A stretch of DNA of 64,000 nucleotides from Sipunculus nudus (Eukaryota; Annelida; Sipuncula; Golfingiida; Sipunculidae): NCBI GenBank assembly GCA_026874595.1, contig CM049306.1, positions 19,707,019-19,771,018 of the forward strand, written 5' to 3'. Positions 42,348-55,814 of this stretch are shown here, piece by piece (position 1 is the stretch's first letter; each line of letters begins with the position of its first letter). A program made the position numbers and the translations under genes. The notes beneath the pieces are model-generated. The model made no database searches and had not been told where the DNA came from. It worked only from the letters and a program-made list of their open reading frames with translations.

Positions 42348-44793
42348 TTTTTAGCACAGCTGACTTTCATTCATGCTGGGCTATAGCGATGGGTCTTTGT
42401 CCGTCGTCCTTCCGTCTGTCCGTCCGGATGTCCGGCCGGCTGTCCGGCCGGCCGTCCGGCCGTTAGCAGGGCACAAATCGTAACCGTAGGGGCTAGGGCC
42501 ATGAACCCTATGCAGTCTTAGAGGTTATAAAAAGATCTCATTGCAAACCTGAAATTAGGTCACTGAGACCTATATTCTCGAAGTTATGGGGTGTGTTTGC
42601 ACCCCCCAGAAATAACTCTTTGAGACAAAATTTTCATCCCAAACCTTCCATCTTTCACATACAGCTCACCTACCAACAGGGGAAGAACCATAATTTTTTT
42701 TAGGTCAAAAGGTCAAAGGTCAAGGTCACAGGAGCCTCTTCTTTGAAAAGCCTGTGGATGCATTTTAAGCCAACCCTTTCATCCCAATTCTTTGATCTTT
42801 CACATATAGCTCACCTACTAAGTTGGAGAAGAATCCTATAGATTTTGAGGTCACAAGGTCAAAGGTCAGGGTCACAGGATCCACTTCTTTGAAAAGGTTT
42901 GGACACATTTCAAGCTAGACTTTTCATTCCAAACCTTCCAGCACTGATATCGCTTCTCTGCCAACAGGGGAAAAGACCTGTTGATTTTGAGGTCAAAGGT
43001 CAAGTTCACAGCACCCACTTCTTGCGTGGAGTCTTTTTCAGGCAAACTTTTCAATCTGTACCTTCCATCTGTCATATATGGCTTACCTACCAATAAGGGA
43101 AGAAGCCTATTGATGTTGAGGTCAAAAAGTCAAAGGTCAAGGTCACAATATTTAATTGTTCTAAATGCTTGTGAGCATATTTCAAGTGTAACTGTTCAAC
43201 CCAAACCTTCAGTCTTTCACATATGCCACATCTATGCATCACTCAGTTTGACTCAAACTTCATATTTATGGGTCTTTTTGCTTGAATAAATAACTTATTG
43301 ATTTTGGGGTCAGCTGGTCAGCAGGTTAAAGGTTGCAGGTCAAAGTTATTCACCCATTGGTTGCCAAGTAATTACACCAGATTTAAGTGGTTAGTAGTTA
43401 CCCATCATTTAGAAAGAATCCAGTTGATATATGGGCAAAAGGCCAAGGTCATAGGTCAGGGATGTTCACAATTACTTATTTTATAGACCATCTCTATTTT
43501 TCTTGTATATATAACCATCCAACTCCAGCTGGTACATCTCCCTGTGTGGCTGTAATTGTGAGTGACACTGGTGACATATGACTCCCTTTTGTATCAGCCT
43601 ATTAAGTGATAAGGCTCAGTGATAAGTACCTCGTTACTTCATAACGAGAATGCTTCAGCCAGGCATTAAGACTATGAGAGTATAGTATTAAGGTTTAGCT
43701 ACTGATTTAAAAGACGATGGGAACATTTTGCAGTTTATTTTATGGAATCCTAGCAATAAACTTAGTTTCCTAGATATCTGAATATTTTAATATATATCAC
43801 CACATATAAAAGCAAGTGTTTGTTCTCATAATATGTGGATGTGTACCTTGATTTAGGATGGCTTTTTGTTTTATTTCAAGACTCTTAGTCATGCTTTCTG
43901 CATTTCTTTTCTTTCAGGTTTGGCAGTTTACCTACCCTGCTGACCCCATTGAAAAGCAGAGTGATAATAAAAAATATTGGACTTACACTTTTTACAATTG
44001 CATATCTATAAATCTTATATGAGGGCCTGGACATGCCTTTTGAATTATTTTGGGCATCCATTACTGGATAATTTGCCCCAAGTTTGGACTCTTATTGGAG
44101 AATGTGGGATATCAAATGTCATACTTGTCAGAAATCCATTATGTCTGCCAGTTAGCCACCTTAGAAATTCTTTCTTCAGTGCAGTTTCAGTAATTTTTCT
44201 TTAATGTTTAGTCCGATTTAGAGAATGTTTGTTGTCTGATTTCAGACTTGTCAGAAGTCCAATATGGACACCAGGCAACCATCTTTTAATTCCTTTTGAT
44301 CATTTTATTTCAAGAACAGTTAAAGTGAATGCAGTTGGATGTATATTTATGTAATCTTGTAAAGGATTGGGTCAAATATTTCTGAATAAATATTACCATC
44401 ATTTATAAAAGTGCAGTACAGTTGGCTTGTATTGAATAAAAATTCACACAGAAGCACCTGTTTCTCAATAATTCTTGCATGTATTTCCTTGATTTTTGCT
44501 ATATATTTTGATCTTATATTTGCCCTTTGTGGTGTTCCTTTTGAGACTGACAGGTTTCAAGCAAGCTGTTGGAATAGTTCCTGATAGCTTAACAATCATG
44601 CATTTTCCTCAGACCATCAATTCACTGTGTTTTGACCAGACATAGGTGATATATATTTCTGTTGTCATAGAAAATTTTCAACAAATTGGCAAATTGGTTC
44701 TTCAAAATTTGACTGGAAGTTGTGAATATCAGTCCATGATGTCACAGGTCATGCTTGGCAGCTGAGCGGCATGACCCATGGGTCACTTGTTTA
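42348..44793 (+). repeat. Head-hairpin/tail repeat (body type III), full copy
   Basis: The head TTTTAGCACAGCTGACTTTC is at 42348, followed by a TCCGGCCGG-rich run. Modules with AGGTCAAAGGTCAAGGTCAC words lie near 42702, 42850, 42990 and 43119. The tail GCAGCTGAGCGGCATGACCC ends at about 44793. A near-identical sister copy lies at 46205-46833 joined to 52104-53854. It sits in the FGD intron that splits the FYVE finger. Confidence 0.85.
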
Positions 44794-46094: not shown

Positions 46095-46204
46095 GTCAGT
46101 TTATGTATTACATAAGTTACAAAAATCTCATTGTAAGCAAGTCAGATAACCTTTATAGTCAAAGTCTTAAAACGTATGGTATCAAAAGTCAAAAGATGTA
46201 CCCT

Positions 46205-46833
46205 TTTTAGCTCAGCTGACTTTCAGTCATGCTGGGCTATAACGATGGGTCTTTGTCCGTCCTCCTTCCGTCTGTCCGGCCGGACAGCCGGCCGGCCGGC
46301 CGTCCGTCCGTTAGCAGGGCACAAATCGTAACCGTAGGGGCTAGGGCCATGAACCCTATGCAGTCTTAGAGGTTATAAAAAGATCTCCTTGCAAACCTGA
46401 AATTAGGTCACTGCGACCTATATTCTCGAAGTTATGGGGTGTGTTTGCACCCCCCAGAAATAACTCTTTGAGACAAAATTTTCATCCCAAACCTTCCATC
46501 TATCACATACAGCTCGCCTACCAACAGGGGAAGAACCATAATTTTTTTTTAGGTCAAAAGGTCAAAGGTCAAGGTCACAGGAGCCTCTTCTTTAAAAAGC
46601 CTGTGGATTCATTTTAAGCCAACCCTTTTATCCCAATTCTTTGATTTTTCACATATAGCTCACCTACTAAGTTGGAGAAGAATCCTATAGATTTTGAGGT
46701 CACAAGGTCAAAGGTCAGGGTCACAGGATCCACTTCTTTGAAAAGGTTGTGGACACATTTCAAGCTAGACTTTTCATTCCAAACCTTCCAGCACTGATAT
46801 CGCTTCTCTGCCAACAGGGGAAAAGACCTGTTG
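46205..46833 (+). repeat. Type III repeat, sister copy, left part (interrupted by DIRS element)
   Basis: Matches 42348-42983 almost base for base, from the head TTTTTAGCTCAGCTGACTTTC to GGAAAAGACCTGTTG, where the DIRS element begins. The match resumes at 52104. Confidence 0.93.
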
Positions 46834-47010
46834 TTTTATTACGTAAACATAATTGTGAGCTGTTTCTGTATTAATGAGAATTTTCTCTGTTAAAGTTTAT
46901 ACGCCAGAGTAAGCCAACCGAAAATTTTCCCTTATTGGGCCTATTATCGCCCATCCCGCCTCGTTCCCGTGTATCTAGGTCACACTTTCGTTACCCATAA
47001 TCACATTTTC
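46834..47010 (+). repeat. Left inverted terminal repeat of the DIRS element
   Basis: From 46857 to 47010 it is the inverse of 51903-52055, including GTTTATACGCCAGAGTAAGC and GTGTATCTAGGTCACAC, with few changes. The outermost 16 bases are instead mirrored in the internal complementary region at 51781. Confidence 0.9.
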
Positions 47011-47129
47011 TTCTGGCGTTCGCCATAATGGACGTGGGATCCCGCTCTGCGAGATTCGTCCACTGTTGGGTTTGTACTAATAAGTTTGCCAACTGAACTG
47101 TAAGTTGTCTTCTTTTTTCCCTTGCCCGC

Positions 47130-48770
47130 CATGGAGAACCCCACTTATTGTGGCTCTTGTGGTTCTTAATCCCGGTTATGACTCCCACCCCCCTTGTTTT
47201 CGTTGCCGCTCCAACATTGACTCCTGCCGTGTTCCGGCTGATCCATGTTTTCACTGCCAGACTTGGACGTCTGACCAGTTGGCACTTTCCCGGATTGGGC
47301 TCATTCCCCTGTACTTGGGGGTTCACCCTCCTGTATTCCATTGTCTGACCCCATGGTTGTCTCCGAGGGGGTGGGGGGGGGGCCTACCCTGGTTGACCGC
47401 ACCACGGCCGTGCTGCGTTCACCGTCCGTTCCCGCAGGTCCTGTCACCTCTCCAGTGGTTTAGACAGTTATATCGTTGAATTCTCATTCACGGAAACGGA
47501 ATTCTTTCCCCGTTCCCGCGGCCTCCCGTTCTGCCAGCACGTCTGCCTATTCCATATTACATTTATTGTCCCGGGTTTGTTAATCACTTATGTCGGATCT
47601 CGACGATTCGTCTAGACCCGATTCTGTCCGCCCGGCGCCCTCGCCGGCGCCCCGGTACTTTCTCCCCGGCTGTTCTCGTCACCGGCTCCTCGCCGGATTC
47701 CTTCCTTATCCCCGGGGCCGGCTGGATCAGCCGATCCCGCCCTGGCACCAGACCAGTGGTCGGCGATCGCGCTGCGCCGCCAGGCTTGGCGTCCGCGCAA
47801 TTCTGCGCTTATGGACCTGGAGGCTACCTCCACACAGGAGGCTAACCCTAGTGGTCCGAAGTTCCGTAGGTACAACCTCAGACTTCCTAGGCGTCAGCGG
47901 CCGGTTCTTCTTTGAATCCTGGCCCCTTCATTCGCCCTCCGCCGCGCCCGCCGTGTGTCTGGTATTACTGACCGCACGGGGGATCTCTTCCGTGGGCCCC
48001 CCGCGGTGGTCTCGGGGTCTTGCTCTACTGGGGCCCCGCTTCCGCCGGTTTCGGATCCACCTTGGTCCCCTGGTACCCTCGGGAGTTCCCTTGGGTACCG
48101 GGCTCCCGGGCTACCTGTTCGTTCGCTTGCTCCCTTTTCCTGAGCTCCCGGATGTTCAGTCTGCTCCGCTGCGCCTCGTGTCCTGCCTGGCACAGCCGTT
48201 TGCGGACGGTCAGTCTTTAATTCCATCCTCTGTCCAGTTTTCCGATCGTCACCTGTCGGATCTGGAGGGGCTCGGCCGGCAAGCGGCCGGTATGGTTTAC
48301 GACTTGCAGACTGTCCCTTGCTTGCTCGCTGTTTCCGGACACGCTCACTCTCCCCGACATATGGCAGGCTTCTGCCCATACTGGCGCTGTGTTCCATTCA
48401 GGTCGTTGGCGCCCGGTTGTAAATTGCATCTTGTTACGCCGCCCGGCTTGCATTCAGTCATTTATGCACTTACGGCCGCGGCTTCTCCGGCGGAGTTGAA
48501 CGAGCTTTATTCTCCGCCTTTCCCGGTTCCCTGCTGTTTGGCGGCCAGTTACGGCCTCTCTTTGACTGCGCCTTGGTGCGCTCGGATCGTCAGGCCCGCC
48601 TCCGCTCGACTTCCCTTGCGCCTCGGTCTTCCTTCCGCGTTCCCCGCCTTCGGCCTCCGGTTGCGGCTTCCGCTCAGCCGCGTCGCGCATCTGCTACCTC
48701 GTCACGTCCTTCAGGACGTTCCAGCCTTTCTCCGCCTTTCGTGGTCGCTCCTCCCAACGAGGTTTGACTG
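47130..48770 (+). pseudogene. DIRS gag-like pseudogene
   Basis: An ATG at 47130 opens a short frame with CGSC. After a frame change the Cys pattern continues with CFRC and PCFHCQTWTSDQ (47200-47280), like the Cys-rich N-terminus of DIRS-type gag proteins. The frame then changes again; 47590 onward gives SDLDDSSRPDSVRPAPSPAP, and a different frame near 47730-47870 gives DQWSAIALRRQAW and PKFRRYNLRL. At least three shifts are needed to connect these pieces. Gag would package the element RNA. The exact borders and shift points are inferred. Confidence 0.6.
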
Positions 48771-48784
48771 AGTAATGACTCTCT

Positions 48785-50530
48785 AGCTCCGATCGGCGCT
48801 CGGCTCAGCGACCGTTTTCCCGCGTGGGCGGGTTTCACCTCCCAGCGGTTAATTCTCAGCGCCCTACAGTTCGGGTTCTGTCTTACGTTTAGCACACTCC
48901 GCCTCCGTCCGATCCAGCAAAACGCCTCGCTTGGCGGAGGCCCCTCAATCTATGTTAGACAATCAGGCTATTTGAGGTTTCCCCATCCACCGTGGGGTTT
49001 CACTCTCGCCTTTTCTTGTTCCCGACCCGCACGGCTGTTGGCGCCCGATCATAGACCTGTAGCGCCTCAATTTGTTCATCCATCCGCCCCCGGTTCGGAT
49101 GTTCATTCTCCATGCTGTCCTCCGCATTGTTCGGCTGATGGCTTAGGCGTTCACATATAGACCTTATGGATGCCTAATTTAACGTTTCCATTCCGGGTCC
49201 ATCCGTTTGGGATCCTCCTGGCCCCCTGGAATTTAGCATCGTTGTTCACACGGTCCCGTGTTCTCTCTGTTCACAGTGGCATTTCTGTGCTCCCTTCTCC
49301 GGACGATTGGCTGGTCCATGCAGCCAATCGCTCCCTCTTACTGTCACATCGCTCCCGGGTTCTCAACTTACTTCGGAACCTCGGCTTCCTGGTCAATGCG
49401 GAGAAATCTCTTCTCACTCCCACCCAGTCCCTCCAATTTCTGGGTGTCACGCTCGATTTTGCGTCCGGCACTGCGTTGCTCCTGCGCGATTTTGCTCTCC
49501 CGCTCCGCCGCCTAATTTGTTCCTTTCTCACGCGGTGCCGTGTAGCCTCGCGCACAGCGGCTTCTCTCCACGGTGCTCTCAACTGGGCTGCGTCTTTCAT
49601 CCCCTTCGGCCGACTGTACCTCCGTCCGATTCAGTCTATCTTGCGCCGTCACGGCCTTCTCCGGTTAACCTCAGTTCGTCCTCCGATCCTCCCGTTTTGG
49701 AGCGCCTGGCGGTCCCTTCGTCCCTGGATGGACCTTTCCTTTCTCCTGACCGGCGTTCCTTTTTCCGGGGATGTTGCTTGCACCATCTATACCGATGCGT
49801 CTCTCCTCGGTTGGGGGGCCCATCTTGCCGATCTTCGCGCTTCCGGGATATGGTCCCCGTCGGGACGTCTGCTCCGTGTCAATTTCCTCGCCCTGCGTGC
49901 CGTCCGTCGCGCGTTCTCCCACTGGTCTCCCCGCTTGATCGGACGTCCCATTCTCGTCCGGCCCGACAATCCCACGGTTGTGGCATATATCAACAAGCAG
50001 GGCGGTACTCGGTCTCCCTCGCTCATACAGGCGACTTCCCTTTTGTTCGATCTATGCCTCTCTCTCCGGGCATCAGTTCGTGCATCCCATCTTCCGGGCG
50101 TGTCGAACATCCTAGCGGACGCCCCTTCACGTCATCCGGCGTCTCTTCCTTCCCCGCCGCTCCTTCCGCTCCCGGTTATTTGGAGTGTTTTCGCTCGCCT
50201 GGGGCGGCCGGAATTCGATCTGTTCGATTTTCCGTCCCCCCCGTTCTCGTGCCTTCCGAGACGCGTCTACGTCCCCTCGCGACCGTCTCCCCGACACGCC
50301 GCCATCCAGGTGGTCTCACCGGTTTCTCTTGCGTTTCCGGCGCCTCCTCTCCTCCGCCCTGTCCTTCTCCGCTTGTCCCGCGCGGCCCAGACTACCCTGC
50401 TTCTCATCCTTCCGTTTCAACCTGTGGCTCCATGGGTTCCTCTGTGGCGCTCGCTTCTCTATCGCCCCCCGCTTATACTACCGCTCCGCATTGCGCCCTT
50501 GTGTTCCCTCGAACGCGTCGCCCGTTTCGG
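48785..50530 (+). pseudogene. DIRS reverse transcriptase-RNase H pseudogene
   Basis: Fragments in three frames follow the DIRS order: GARLSDRFPAWAGFTSQR (about 48798), GCWRPIIDL with a stop at 49060, IDLMDA with a stop (TAA 49175) in place of the usual Tyr, HPFGILLAPW (about 49201), and SPDDWL (about 49300) for the usual Tyr-Leu-Asp-Asp box. From 49170 one frame runs to 50648. The RNase H part has YTDASLLGWGAHL (about 49789), LALRAV where a catalytic Glu normally stands, DNPTVVAYINKQGGTRS (about 49965) and HLPGVSNILADAPSR. A further conserved stretch, FDLFDFPSPPF, follows. It copied the RNA into DNA; it is inactive as it stands. Confidence 0.85.
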
Positions 50531-50533
50531 TCG

Positions 50534-51693
50534 TGCCCTCTATGCGCATGCGTGCTCTCATCGGACACCTCAAGGATCAGGGCATTTCAAGTCCGGCTGC
50601 TCTCCTTGCCTCAGCTCTCCGTCGCCGTTCTTCGGACCGCATCTATGACTCCCGGTGGCATCTCTTCACGGAGTGGGCGTCTTCCCGCGGACTCTCCCCT
50701 TTAGATCCGTCGCTTGCGGCTGTTTTGGATTTTTTCGTGTTCTTACTGCAGGATAAACATTTATCCTATCCCTCTCTGCGTGGCTATCGCGCCGCCCTGC
50801 TGTAGGTGCTCCGTCCGCTGGGTCACGATCGTGTCCTTCATCACCCGTTGGTGTCGGACTTTCTCAAGGGGGTTCAGGCCTGTGCGTCTCGTCCTCAGTA
50901 TGTTGCGCCTTCCTGGTGCCTGGACGTCGTCTTACGTCACCTCCGGGAACCCCCTTATGCGCCGTTGCGTTCGGCCCATCTTCTACCTTTGTCTCGGACA
51001 ACGGTTTTCCTCCTAGCTCTTGCCTTGGCAGGTCGCCGTTCTGAGCTTCATGCCCTCGTGGCTGATTCGAAATTCCAGCAAATTGCGGCCGCCGCTTCGT
51101 CGGCCACCCTACATTTTCCTCCGGACTTTTATGGGAAATATCACAATTTCGATGACCCTCCATCTGCTTGGCACGTTCCGGCACTCCCTACCGGTCTGTA
51201 CCGTACTGGGGATACCCCTTGCCCGGTTCGTGCGTTGCGTTATTATCTACATGCTCCTCCTTCTTTACGGGGGGGGGGGGGGGGGGGGCGCAAGAAGTTG
51301 TTTATTTCTACAAAAGTCACATCTTCCAATTAGGTGATAAGCCCTTTCACCATTAGTGCGTGACTCAACGCTACTATCGTCGCCGCATATGAATCAGCTT
51401 CTCATTCCACATTAGACCAACTTCACTTCAAGGCCCATGACATTCGAGCTAATTCGACTTCCTTGGCCCATTTCTCCGGGATCTCACCTAATCAGTTGGT
51501 CAAGATGGGATACTGGATATCCCCATCTCCGTTCACACGCTTCTATCTGAAAGATGTTCAGCTCCAGGCTTCGGGCCTCTACTCCATGGGCCCTGTGATC
51601 GCGTCGGGTGAGGTCCTACAATTTTCCAGGCCTTCTTCTTCCTCTCCGTCGGTCCCGCCACCGACGTCGACTGCTGCTCCATCACCGCACTGA
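50534..51693 (+). pseudogene. DIRS tyrosine recombinase pseudogene
   Basis: One reading frame carries the whole recombinase: an N-terminal helical part (SDRIYDSRWHLFTEWASS, about 50632), the Arg box AGRRSELHAL (Arg at 51034-51039), the HxxR box HDIR (51436-51447) and the nucleophile in FTRFYLKDV (Tyr at 51544-51546). The catalytic residues are thus visible, but three in-frame stops interrupt it: TAG 50803, TAG 51331 and TGA 51361. A 20-base G run near 51270-51288 sits in a glycine stretch and may vary in length. The enzyme family integrates the circular DNA copy. Confidence 0.88.
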
Positions 51694-51780
51694 GATTCCT
51701 CGTTCCAGCGTTACAGGTAGGTGCCCCCTCCCCAAGGCATGTCTGTTTTTTTCTCATTAATACAGAAACAGTTCACAATT

Positions 51781-51862
51781 ATGTTTACGTAATAAAACCC
51801 CCCCATTCCCTCCCTGTGAATGGTGGTTTTTGTTAGTAAACTGTTGTGAGCTTTTCTGTATT
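51781..51862 (+). repeat. Internal complementary region of the DIRS element
   Basis: The left part, ATGTTTACGTAATAAAA, is the inverse of the element's first bases. The right part, starting after the C run with ATTCCCTCCCTGTGAATGG, is the inverse of its last bases (52041-52103). Read in inverse it gives the join of right end to left end, the expected template for restoring the ends during circle formation. Confidence 0.92.
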
Positions 51863-51902
51863 ACAAACATCGCTCCCTCCCAGTCCTCTTCCTTACGCCT
51901 TC

Positions 51903-52103
51903 GAAAATGTGATTATGGGTAACGGAAGTGTGACCTAGATACACGGGAACGAGGCGGGATGGGCGATAATAGGCCCAATAAGGGAAAATGTTCGGTTGGC
52001 TTACTCTGGCGTATAAACTTTAACAGAGAAAATTCTCATTTATACAGAAAGCTCACAACAGTTTACTAACAAAACCACCATTCACAGGGAGGGAATGGGG
52101 GGG
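51903..52103 (+). repeat. Right inverted terminal repeat of the DIRS element
   Basis: The inverse of the left repeat over about 150 bases, then a terminal segment (52041-52103) that pairs with the internal complementary region and ends with seven G bases. Confidence 0.9.
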
Positions 52104-53854
52104 ATTTTGAGGTCAAAGGTCAAGTTCACAGCACCCACTTCTTGCGTGGAGTCATTTTCAGGCAAACTTTTCAATCTGTACCTTCCATCTGTCATATATG
52201 GCTTACCTACCAATAAGGGAAGAAGCCTATTGATGTTGAGGTCAAAAAGTCAAAGGTCAAGGTCACAATATTTAATTGTTCTAAATGCTTGTGAGCATAT
52301 TTCAAGTGTAACTGTTCAACCCAAACCTTCAGTCTTTCACATATGCCACATCTATGCATCACTCAGTTTGACTCAAACTTCATATTTATGGGTCTTTTTG
52401 CTTGAATAAATAACTTATTGATTTTGGGGTCAGCTGGTCAGCAGGTTAAAGGTTGCAGGTCAAAGTTATTCACCCATTGGTTGCCAAGTAATTACACCAG
52501 ATTTAAGTGGTTAGTAGTTACCCATCATTTAGAAAGAATCCAGTTGATATATGGGCAAAAGGCCAAGGTCATAGGTCAGGGATGTTCACAATTACTTATT
52601 TTATAGACCATCTCTATTTCTCTTGTATATATAACCATCCCACTCCAGCTGGTACATCTCCCTGTGTGGCTGTAATTGTCAGTGACACTGGTGACATATG
52701 ACTCCCTTTTGTATCAGCCTATTAAGTGATAAGGCTCAGTGATAAGTACCTGGTTACTTCATAACAAAAACACTGTTGTCAGAATGCTTCAGCCAGGCAT
52801 TAAGACTATGAGAGTATAGTATTAAGGTTTAGCTACTGATTTATAAGATGATGGGAACATTTTGCAGTTTATTTTATGGAATCCTAGCAATAAACTTAGT
52901 TTCCTAGATATCTGAATATTTTAATATATATCACCACATATAAAAGCAAGTGTTTGTTCTCATAATATGTGGATGTGTACCTTGATTTAGGATGGCTTTT
53001 TGTTTTATTTCAAGACTCTTAGTCATGCTTTCTGCATTTCTTTTCTTTCAGGTTTAGCAGTTTACCTACCCTGCTGACCCCATTGAAAAGCAGAGTGATA
53101 ATAAAAAATATTGGACTTACACTTTTTACAATTGCATATCTATAAATCTGATATGAGGGCCTGGACATGCCTTTTGAATTATTTTGGGCATTCATTACTG
53201 GATAATTTGCCCAAGTTTGGTCTCTTATTAGAGAATGTGGGATATCAAATGTCATACTTGTCAGAAATCCATTATGTCTGCCAGTTAGCCACCTTAGAAA
53301 TTCTTTCTTCAGTGCAGTTTCAGTAATTTTTCTTTAATGTTTAGTCCGATTTAGAGAATGTTTGTTGTCTGATTTCAGACTTGTCAGAAGTCCAATATGG
53401 CCACCAGGCAACCATCTTTTAATTCCTTTTGATCATATTATCTCAAGAACAGTTAAAGTGAATGCAGTTGGATGTATATTTATGTAATCTTGTAAAGGAT
53501 TGGGTCAAATATTTCTGAATAAATATTACCATCATTTACAAAAGTGCAGTACAGTTGGCTTGTATTGAATAAAAATTCATACAGAAGCACCTGTTTCTCA
53601 ATAATTCTTGCATGTATTTCCTTGATTTTTGCTATATATTTTGATCTTATATTTTCCCTTTGTGGTGTTCCTTTGAGACTGACAGGTTTCAAGCAAGCTG
53701 TTGGAATAGTTCCTGATAGCTTAACAATCATGCATTTTCCTCAGACCATCAATTCACTGTGTTTTAACCAGACATAGGTGATATATATTTCTGTTGTCAT
53801 AGAAAATTTTCAACAAATTGGCAAATTGGTTCTTCAAAATTTGACTGGAAGTTG
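52104..53854 (+). repeat. Type III repeat, sister copy, right part
   Basis: Continues the match to the upstream copy from 42984 to about 44733, nearly identical. Small differences include an added ACAAAAACACTGTTGTC-like segment near 52765. The match stops at about 53854, so the family tail is missing here. New sequence follows up to the next repeat. Confidence 0.93.
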
Positions 53855-53937: not shown

Positions 53938-55814
53938 TTGTTTTTAGCTCAGCTGACTGTAAGTCATCTGAGCTATAGGGATCACCTTTTGTCCGCCGTC
54001 CGTCCGTCCGGCCGTCTGTCCGTTAACAGGGCACAAATCGTAACTGCTAGAACTGGAATCTTCTTACTTGACATCCTGGGAGGTCAATGGAAATTTTCCT
54101 TGTAAACCTGAAATTAGGTCACTGTGACCTATATTCTTCGAGCTATGGGGTTCCGAAGTACCCCCCAGAATAATGGAAAATTTGATACAAAAGCTCAAGT
54201 ATCTGAACAACTAATACGATCAACATGATTTTTTGCATGGATATTGATCATGGAGTGTTTCATCAGTTTCTGCAGACTGGTGGCGCCACCTGTATTTTTT
54301 CGATTTTTACCAATATTTTTCTCTATTTTTGAGACCTCTTAAGATGCGGCCATCTGTTAACAGGGCACAAATCGTAACGACTACACCTAGAATCTTCTCT
54401 CTTGACATGCAGGGAGGCCCATAAAAAGTCTCTTTGGAAACCTGAAATTAGGTCTCTGTTACCCATAACCTTTGAGCTATGGGGCTCCGAAGTACCCCCC
54501 AGAATAATGGAAAATTTGATACAAAAGCTCAAGTATCTAAACAACTATTGCAGTGATCACGATGATTCTTTGCATGGATATTGATCATGGAATGTGTCAT
54601 CAGTTTCTGCAGTATGGTGGCGCCACCTGTATTTTTTTGTATTTTTTATGAATTTTTTTCTCTATTTTTGAGACCTCATAAGATGCGGTCATCTGTTAAC
54701 ATGGCACAAATCGTAACAACTGGACCTAAAATCTTCTCTCTTGACATGCTGAGAGGCCCATGAAAAGTGTCCTTGTAAACCTGAAATTAGGTCTCTGTTA
54801 CCCATAACCTCTGAGCTATGGGGTTCTGAAGTACCCCCCAGAATAATGCAAAATTTAATACAAAAGCTCAAGTATCTGAACAACTATGCATTAATCACCA
54901 TGATTCTTTGCATGGATATTGATCATGGAGTGTTTCATCAATTTCTGGAGATTGGTGGCGCCACCTATATTTTTATTTTTTTTATTTTTTACGATTTTTT
55001 TTCTCTACTTTTGTGATCTTTAAACATTTGGTCATCTGTAAACAGGGCACAAATCATAATGACTGGACCTAGAATCTTCTGTCCTCACCTCCAGGGAAGC
55101 CCATAAGAGGTCTACATGGAAACCCGAAATAAGGTCCCTGTTACCCATATTCTGTGAGCTATGGGGCTCTGAAGTAGCCCCCAGAATAAAGATTTGGTCA
55201 TATATTAACAGGGCACAAATCATAATGACTGGACCTAGAATCTTCTTTCTTGACATGCAGGGAGGTCCATGAAACATCTTGGAAACCTGAAATTAGGTCT
55301 CTGTTACCCATATCCTTCATGCTCTGGGGCTCCGAAGTACTCCCCAGAATAAAGATTTGGTCATCTGTTAACAGAGCACAAATTATAATGACTTGACCTA
55401 GAATCTCCTTTCTTGATATGCTGGGAGGCCCCTGAAAAGTCTCCTTGTGCACCTGAAATTACATCTCTGTTACCCATATCCTTCATCCTATGCGGCTTTG
55501 AAATACCCCCCAGAATAAACATTTGGTCATCTGTTAACAGGGCACAAATCATAATAACTGGACCTAGAATTTTATTTTTTGCCACGCTGGGAGACCCCTG
55601 AAAAGTCATCTTGTAAACCTTGAAAATAGGTGTCTGTTACCCATATCCTTCATGCTACAGAGCTCCATAGTACCCCAATGAATATTGGATGATTTTATAC
55701 AAAAGGTCAAGTTTGGAAAAAGTATTTCATTCAAATTTGACATTCAGATGATAAAATTACTTTTGTCAATGTCTTCCTGGTCAGCTGAGCGTCATGACCC
55801 CTGGGTCACTTGTT
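53938..55814 (+). repeat. Head-hairpin/tail repeat (body type II), full copy with seven modules
   Basis: The head hairpin is at 53938 and the tail CAGCTGAGCGTCATGACCC ends near 55814. The module opening ACAGGGCACAAATC recurs at 54026, 54360, 54699, 55042, 55208, 55371 and 55537. The first three steps are about 334-343 bp and contain GGTGGCGCCACC (54279, 54616, 54954). The last steps are about 165 bp, because the second half of each module is absent. Confidence 0.85.

Follow-up and report, generated by a model that had tools for sequence, protein, structure and literature searches.

A DIRS1-like retroelement of Sipunculus nudus with a readable empty site and a family-wide target word

The window, by which we mean the whole stretch of 64,000 nucleotides analysed here, comes from contig CM049306.1 (positions 19,707,019 to 19,771,018, forward strand; C1 in our numbering of the 153 contigs) of the 1.43-Gb genome of Sipunculus nudus (assembly GCA_026874595.1). 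At positions 46834-52103 it carries a DIRS1-like element that interrupts a repeat, an uninterrupted sister of which lies in the same window (Table 1). Other loci in the genome are given as L numbers, and ^ marks a junction or point of insertion.

Table 1. Features of the element and of the repeats around it (window positions)
Feature	Position	Strand	Basis
Uninterrupted sister repeat, empty site 42983/42984	42348-44722	+	BLAST alignment, genome matches
Interrupted repeat, left part, ends CCTGTTG	46204-46833	+	BLAST alignment
DIRS1-like element	46834-52103	+	Self-comparison, empty-site alignment, junction reading
Left end outside the conserved inverted terminal repeat, first letters TTTTATTACG	46834-46862	+	
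Left inverted terminal repeat, conserved part	46863-47010	+	98% complementary to 51903-52050
395-aa open frame where a gag-like ORF1 would lie	47584-48771	+	No Pfam match; putative coding
Open frame with weak matches to the C-terminal half of reverse transcriptase and to RNase H	49161-50648	+	RVT_1, RT_RNaseH
Putative tyrosine recombinase remnant	50605-51690	+	Frame reading, residue layout
Internal complementary region, left half (reverse complement of left end)	51751-51798	-	
Internal complementary region, right half (reverse complement of right end)	~51798-51863	-	
Right inverted terminal repeat, conserved part	51903-52050	-	
Right end past the conserved inverted terminal repeat, terminates in seven G	52051-52103	+	
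Interrupted repeat, right part, starts ATTTTGAGG	52104-53854	+	BLAST alignment

Self-comparison of the element displayed inverted terminal repeats (ITRs) with 148-nt arms that are 98% complementary, as well as an internal complementary region (ICR) that covers both ends, its two halves (51751-51798 and 51798-51863) overlapping at the circle junction, which reads AAAA/CCCCCCC at 51794-51804. Because the ICR is the reverse complement of both ends, its other strand spells the ends joined to one another, seven G followed by TTTTATTACG. The ITRs and the ICR that a preliminary description of this DNA had named are present, as is a junction of seven G and TTTT. The sole direct match within the element, 52 nt at 79%, is between the right end and the ICR; the ends are inverted, and neither split direct repeats nor direct long terminal repeats (LTRs) with a short target duplication were found. 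Split direct repeats bound PAT-like elements (PMC3266345; this and the other papers cited are drawn on in excerpt), and Ngaro-like repeats have a similar pattern (PMC6681497). Both groups are, like the family proposed here, tyrosine-recombinase retrotransposons, but the element differs from them in its inverted ends and ICR.

Its likeness is instead to DIRS1-like elements, with ITRs that have a less alike outer part, a right extension, two overlapping ICRs, a circle junction and no target duplication. GaDIRS1 of the stickleback is close in its dimensions, with a length of 5322 bp, termini GTT and a circular junction AAC (PMC3266345, Table 3), and with a divergent ITR of 19, a conserved ITR of 148, an rE of 27 and an ICR of 46-56 (PMC3266345). 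The corresponding values for the window element are 5.27 kb, a conserved ITR of 148, an outer left part of 29 and ICR halves of 48 and 66, with a junction readable as GTT/AAC.

Alignment of the sister with the interrupted repeat by BLAST yielded a left piece (42348-42987 with 46204-46837, 95.95%) and a right piece (42983-44722 with 52103-53854, 97.9%), which bears out the earlier claim that the element interrupts a repeat with an intact sister in the window. The empty site reads CCTGTTG^ATTTTGAGG, and the filled site reads CCTGTTG^TTTTATT on the left and GGGGGGG^ATTTTGAGG on the right; a single base, a G, is ambiguous, being assignable either to the target (46833) or to the end of the element (the last G, at 52103). 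To read the empty site elsewhere, the genome was searched with a 211-bp query across it, and 40 of 220 first-look candidates were scored. The site was unbroken in 40/40, each match spanning query positions 1-211 at 98-100% identity, and the eight matches extracted for reading, among them the empty copy in the window itself, were all letter-identical to the joined flanks at the site. The contiguity of the flanks at 42983/42984 is thereby upheld, and these data confirm that the insertion at 46834-52103 neither duplicated nor lost target bases; an empty allele at the window site should read CCTGTTGATTTTGAGG.

The interrupted repeat (42348-44722 in its intact form) is dispersed, with 40 copies or more that are 98-100% identical over the 211 bp, and contains AGGTCA-like words. 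Just past its interrupted copy, at 54019-54500, lies a 148-nt direct repeat with copy starts 334 nt apart and 83% alike.

The element belongs to a numerous family. The first 61 nt of its left end were found at 419 places in the genome with up to 3 mismatches allowed, and a 22-mer common to the left end and the ICR at 641 places, both being counts of ends and not of whole elements. The best full-length left-end matches have 98-99% identity over 267 nt; for a recombinase piece of 501 nt, the best matches lie at 94-96%. Across 1.5 kb of the recombinase region, ten copies with well kept ends share 66-95% identity with the window. This comparison of ends with interior leans towards well kept ends because the copies were chosen by their ends. 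At the right end, the G run is of seven in 47/69 copies. Expanded G runs occur as well, with 20 G in the recombinase frame of the window copy (51269-51288) and as many as 16 at the right ends of other copies. At C6:10427449 and C6:10432722 (L148 and L149), left ends of like orientation lie 5,273 bp apart, which is about one element length; both are absent among the G-run matches.

The absence of duplication extends to the family. Left and right flanks could be read for 47 of 48 paired insertions, one being dropped for want of a right end, and the longest stretch shared between the flanks was 0, 1, 2 or 3 letters in 1, 36, 9 and 1 pairs, compared with means of 1.3, 35.2, 9.4 and 0.8 (and a small tail) when partners were shuffled. 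Shared flank letters are not above the shuffled expectation, consistent with a family that inserts without target duplication, as described for DIRS1-like elements.

Aligned by their junctions, these insertions show that the family has a target word, G^[T/A]T[T/C], and that the element enters between the G and the next base. We used 86 left flanks, comprising the window, 37 of L001-L038 (minus L027, which is tandem) and 48 more, from which L039 and the internal regions L157, L160, L165, L167, L168 and L171 were excluded, as well as 69 of 71 right stretches, L110 and L180 being set aside for a right end that was too poor; four further stretches without a recognisable right end (L181-L184) were also excluded. 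The left position -1 was G in 81/86 flanks, T in 3 and C in 2. Following the G run on the right, +1 was T in 50, A in 18 and C in 1, so that T or A stood there in 68/69; +2 was T in 66 and G in 3, those three being among the copies whose G run is interrupted by another letter; and +3 was T in 53, C in 11, G in 3 and A in 2 (T or C in 64/69). As a triplet, TTT followed the G in 41/69 copies, ATT in 11, TTC in 7 and ATC in 4. Upstream, A was frequent at -8 (62/86, chi-square p 5e-14) and -9 (52/86, p 1e-8). Only one of the 86 left flanks ended in GGG and none in more G. The word is not one repeat counted many times, since at least 22 of 30 letters agreed in only one pair of left flanks. The "possible shared G" of the preliminary description is the single shared base at the window site, and beyond that the core of the family-wide target word.

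The junctions also bear on where strands are exchanged. A tyrosine recombinase with a 6-8 bp overlap should leave both classes of junction, with the letters of the element on the left in some insertions and those of the target in others. For this comparison 53 pairs were available, the 47 above and six entered by hand, including L163/L180 (poor right end) and two interrupted G runs read by eye. The target differed from TTT at +1 to +3 in 24/53, and the element's own TTT stood at the left junction in 23 of these 24. This count is favoured by the sampling, because many left ends had been picked by exact match to the first 61 nt; among the 15 pairs found by the 22-mer only, which are free of that bias, the proportion was 6/7 informative pairs (p 0.06). 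In the set ranked over 267 nt, 38/38 printed left junctions (37 of L001-L038 and the window) start with TTTT, and 28/69 right flanks are other than TTT. Other left letters occur in four of the 53 pairs. Among these, L172/L177 (left CTTT, right TTTA) is what resolution in the reverse direction would give, and L156 (left ATTT), for which the right end was not found, could be another such case. Exchange seems to resolve at a single point in nearly all informative pairs.

The genes of the window copy are broken. The frame at 49161-50648 matches the C-terminal half only of RVT_1 (E=3e-5, with a score of 24.3 bits where the cut-off is 29.6), and an N-terminal part of the reverse transcriptase, located by eye, lies upstream in another frame with stops. 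RT_RNaseH matched at 0.097 in the window and at 2.4e-4 in L215, both below the cut-off. Pfam scans listed no methyltransferase in pol, with no methyltransferase model searched by name. In L214, open frames putatively coding for pol and recombinase overlap by about 0.56 kb, whereas the mollusc elements of PMC3266345 are reported to lack a long overlap.

Tyrosine recombinases have a catalytic layout of R, HxxR, W and Y. The recombinase frame of the window, in which stops (50803 TAG, 51331 TAG, 51361 TGA) and a run of 20 G at 51269 have accumulated, reads AGRRSEL ... HDIR ... W ... Y, matching this layout. The two-box pattern (R, HxxR, W, Y) arose in 0/20,000 shuffles, and across six aligned pieces H, W and Y are invariant, and a stop has removed the R after H in two of them. 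When distant copies are compared with the window, differences are concentrated at third codon positions in the C-terminal part (first/second/third: L185 13/8/47, L186 18/12/47, L190 8/9/29) and in the recombinase core (L193, 43/43/96); L194 shows the bias in the C-terminal part only and L188 and L189 weakly, while in the close copies L187, L191 and L192 differences are even across codon positions. We read this bias as probable selection on the recombinase frame in source elements, followed by decay after insertion.

None of ten sampled copies has the recombinase region in one open frame, which raised the possibility of a purely non-autonomous family moved in trans. As stated, this was rejected, because 14/127 genome matches are free of stops over 360 or more of the 362 residues of the query (113 scored of 1,729 candidates in the recombinase-frame search) and because distant copies differ from the window mainly at third positions. 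The earlier statement that ITRs are kept while genes are broken accordingly holds for the window copy, but copies with an open recombinase frame exist elsewhere in the genome.

The 12 loci taken from a genome search with PF00589 lie on contigs C61 and above that have Xer-like proteins, and they provided no bridge to the DIRS-like family. Strong Phage_integrase matches mark the Xer-like recombinases on contigs C61-C128 (for example L198-L209), with an identical 161.2 bits on twelve contigs, and the contigs from C61 upwards look like bacterial contigs in the assembly. Four further Phage_integrase matches lie on a single strand at C5:22953061-22979078, in open frames of 432 aa that follow one another at intervals of about 8.5 kb, and look like a tandem array of a recombinase-coding unit; a fifth of equal score is at C16:45400111.

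Taken together, we consider it highly probable (about 0.9) that the element is a copy, now inactive, from a DIRS1-like family of tyrosine-recombinase retrotransposons, inserted by its recombinase from a circle of cDNA; the circle, the enzyme and the order of events are what we infer. In this scheme the RNA of the element would be reverse-transcribed, and the ICR would serve as template or splint in joining the ends, giving a circle junction GGGGGGG^TTTTATT, a step taken from the published DIRS model. The recombinase would then recombine this junction with a genomic G^[T/A]T[T/C], in many cases preceded by A at -8, -9 or both. The element would thus enter between the G and the base that follows without duplication or loss, and later mutations would have broken the genes. 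The published model likewise has recombination at a 3-bp circle junction without target duplication (PMC3266345). The preference of the preliminary description for insertion of a circle by a recombinase over integrase or target-primed routes is supported as the best reading of structure and junctions.

Several observations weigh against this interpretation. The published rule that the target triplet is identical to the circle junction is strictly true in only the 41/69 copies with TTT, a difference from DIRS1-like elements as described. The reverse transcriptase match is below the curated cut-off. The residue pattern of the recombinase was written after the sequence had been seen, and its box II part alone occurred in 987/20,000 shuffles. 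With E thresholds as loose as 1 or 10, Pfam gave no match to the recombinase, and this held even for two copies whose frame is unbroken; nor was there a meaningful match among NCBIfam models or PDB sequences. No usable similarity emerged from comparison with three bacterial Xer proteins, and an Xer profile was equalled or beaten by 35 to 73 of 874 scored shuffles (2,000 made). Two alignment-free structure predictions were unusable, with a mean pLDDT of 38. Finally, L185 and L186 compared directly with each other have no third-position bias. The profile check proposed earlier thus has a mixed outcome, with weak reverse transcriptase and RNase H matches and a recombinase that matches no Pfam model. 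Duplicated flanks, the other observation that would have refuted the preliminary description, were not found.

Some copies are joined to, or nested in, others of the family, and here a different process has to be considered. Among the 419 left ends, five lie in sites resembling the family's own circle junction, against an expectation of 0.04 (word GTTT) or 0.18 (weight 740 per site, derived by hand from the target-word counts), assuming four such sites per element. The true circle junction stands at four of 46 G-run-match places: two are head-to-tail joins (L027, L140), and two are insertions into the copy of the junction inside the ICR of another element (L039, L139). The fifth self-insertion, L143/L144, reads GGTGG^TTTTATT within the ICR and is exact in L144. 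It is possible, though somewhat less probable than not in our judgement, that these tandem and nested copies arose by homologous recombination of circles with resident copies, and not by a recombinase that selects the word of its own junction. About 113 bp are common to the joined ends and the ICR, and a head-to-tail join follows from any circle that recombines with a resident copy, so that the same product would be expected in four of the five cases (L027, L140, L039 and L139). L143/L144, however, joins sequences with few letters in common and is not easily explained in this way, and insertions into other DNA use the same word. With insertion by the recombinase, the ends and ICR of the family would serve as occasional landing sites through that junction word. 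Insertion into its own copies has been reported for Dictyostelium DIRS-1 (PMC5633606), which has an ICR, inverted ends and a circle model as well; in contrast, most insertions sampled here are in other DNA with a clear preference for the word, the self-insertions being 5/419.

Units of 277 bp equivalent to 51827-52103 are found in tandem in L040 and L143, with the exact join G^TTTTGTTAG. A class of six nested insertions, suggested by six exact matches, did not hold up, as three carry the normal word with point changes. Two of these, at C17, represent a single locus that occurs twice (99.9% alike), and the third, at C3:40183288, lies where a normal right end carries the word. Of the remaining 277-bp tandems, the units on C6 are 98.2% alike, and on C13 units 1 and 2 are 98.9% alike and 92% to unit 0; C2:54179772 was ruled out as a tandem, its flank being unrelated.

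A further alternative, which we regard as unlikely, is that DIRS elements integrate as integron cassettes do, the cDNA circle folding as a single strand at the hairpin of its joined ends, the recombinase exchanging one strand at G^[T/A]T, and replication resolving the intermediate. The integron integrase needs little more than GNT and cleaves between the G and the following base (PMC10127599), and integron sites are folded single strands with AAC at the crossover that are resolved by replication (PMC4792948). The family resembles this in its word, in the single exchange point with the letters of the element at nearly all differing left junctions, in the uniform TTTT of the printed left junctions despite right flanks that are often not TTT, and in the near absence of left flanks ending in a G run. 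Folding of the joined ends also gives a long, imperfect hairpin that pairs AAAAC with GTTTT and brings AAC opposite GTT (z -8.1 and -8.7 for the two strands, 0/200 shuffles each). The hairpin is weak evidence, because any element with inverted ends folds; many of the 24 differing pairs had been chosen through TTTT left ends, and the few pairs with other left letters, above all the reverse outcome at L172/L177 and possibly that at L156, run counter to the proposal. Integrons are, moreover, bacterial and without a reverse transcriptase, and the resemblance is a likeness in exchange point, not membership. In a literature search missing most subscription papers, no published comparison of DIRS integration with integrons was found. 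If this alternative were true, it would account for mixed junctions, duplications and losses being hardly seen, and the 98-99% conservation of the ends against 94-96% for the recombinase piece would reflect selection on a folded recombination site.

Placement by an LTR-type integrase or by target-primed insertion, suggested by the resemblance of the reverse transcriptase and RNase H of DIRS elements to those of Ty3/Gypsy (PMC3266345), is very improbable given ends that are inverted, not direct repeats, and flanks unduplicated at the window site and in the 47 pairs.

By kind, the family is ordinary, and its record of integration is unusually clean. New here are the views, across a family, of the target word, the absence of duplication and the exchange point. 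In the literature drawn on here, target choice and joining in DIRS elements are a model based on structure that is not fully proven by experiment. Hundreds of well kept ends and many uninterrupted sisters make it possible to measure, in this genome, which word is targeted, where exchange takes place, whether bases are lost and how often the family inserts into itself. Should very young copies also show the one-point exchange, a standard double-strand recombinase reaction with a 6-8 bp overlap would be hard to keep for the DIRS group.

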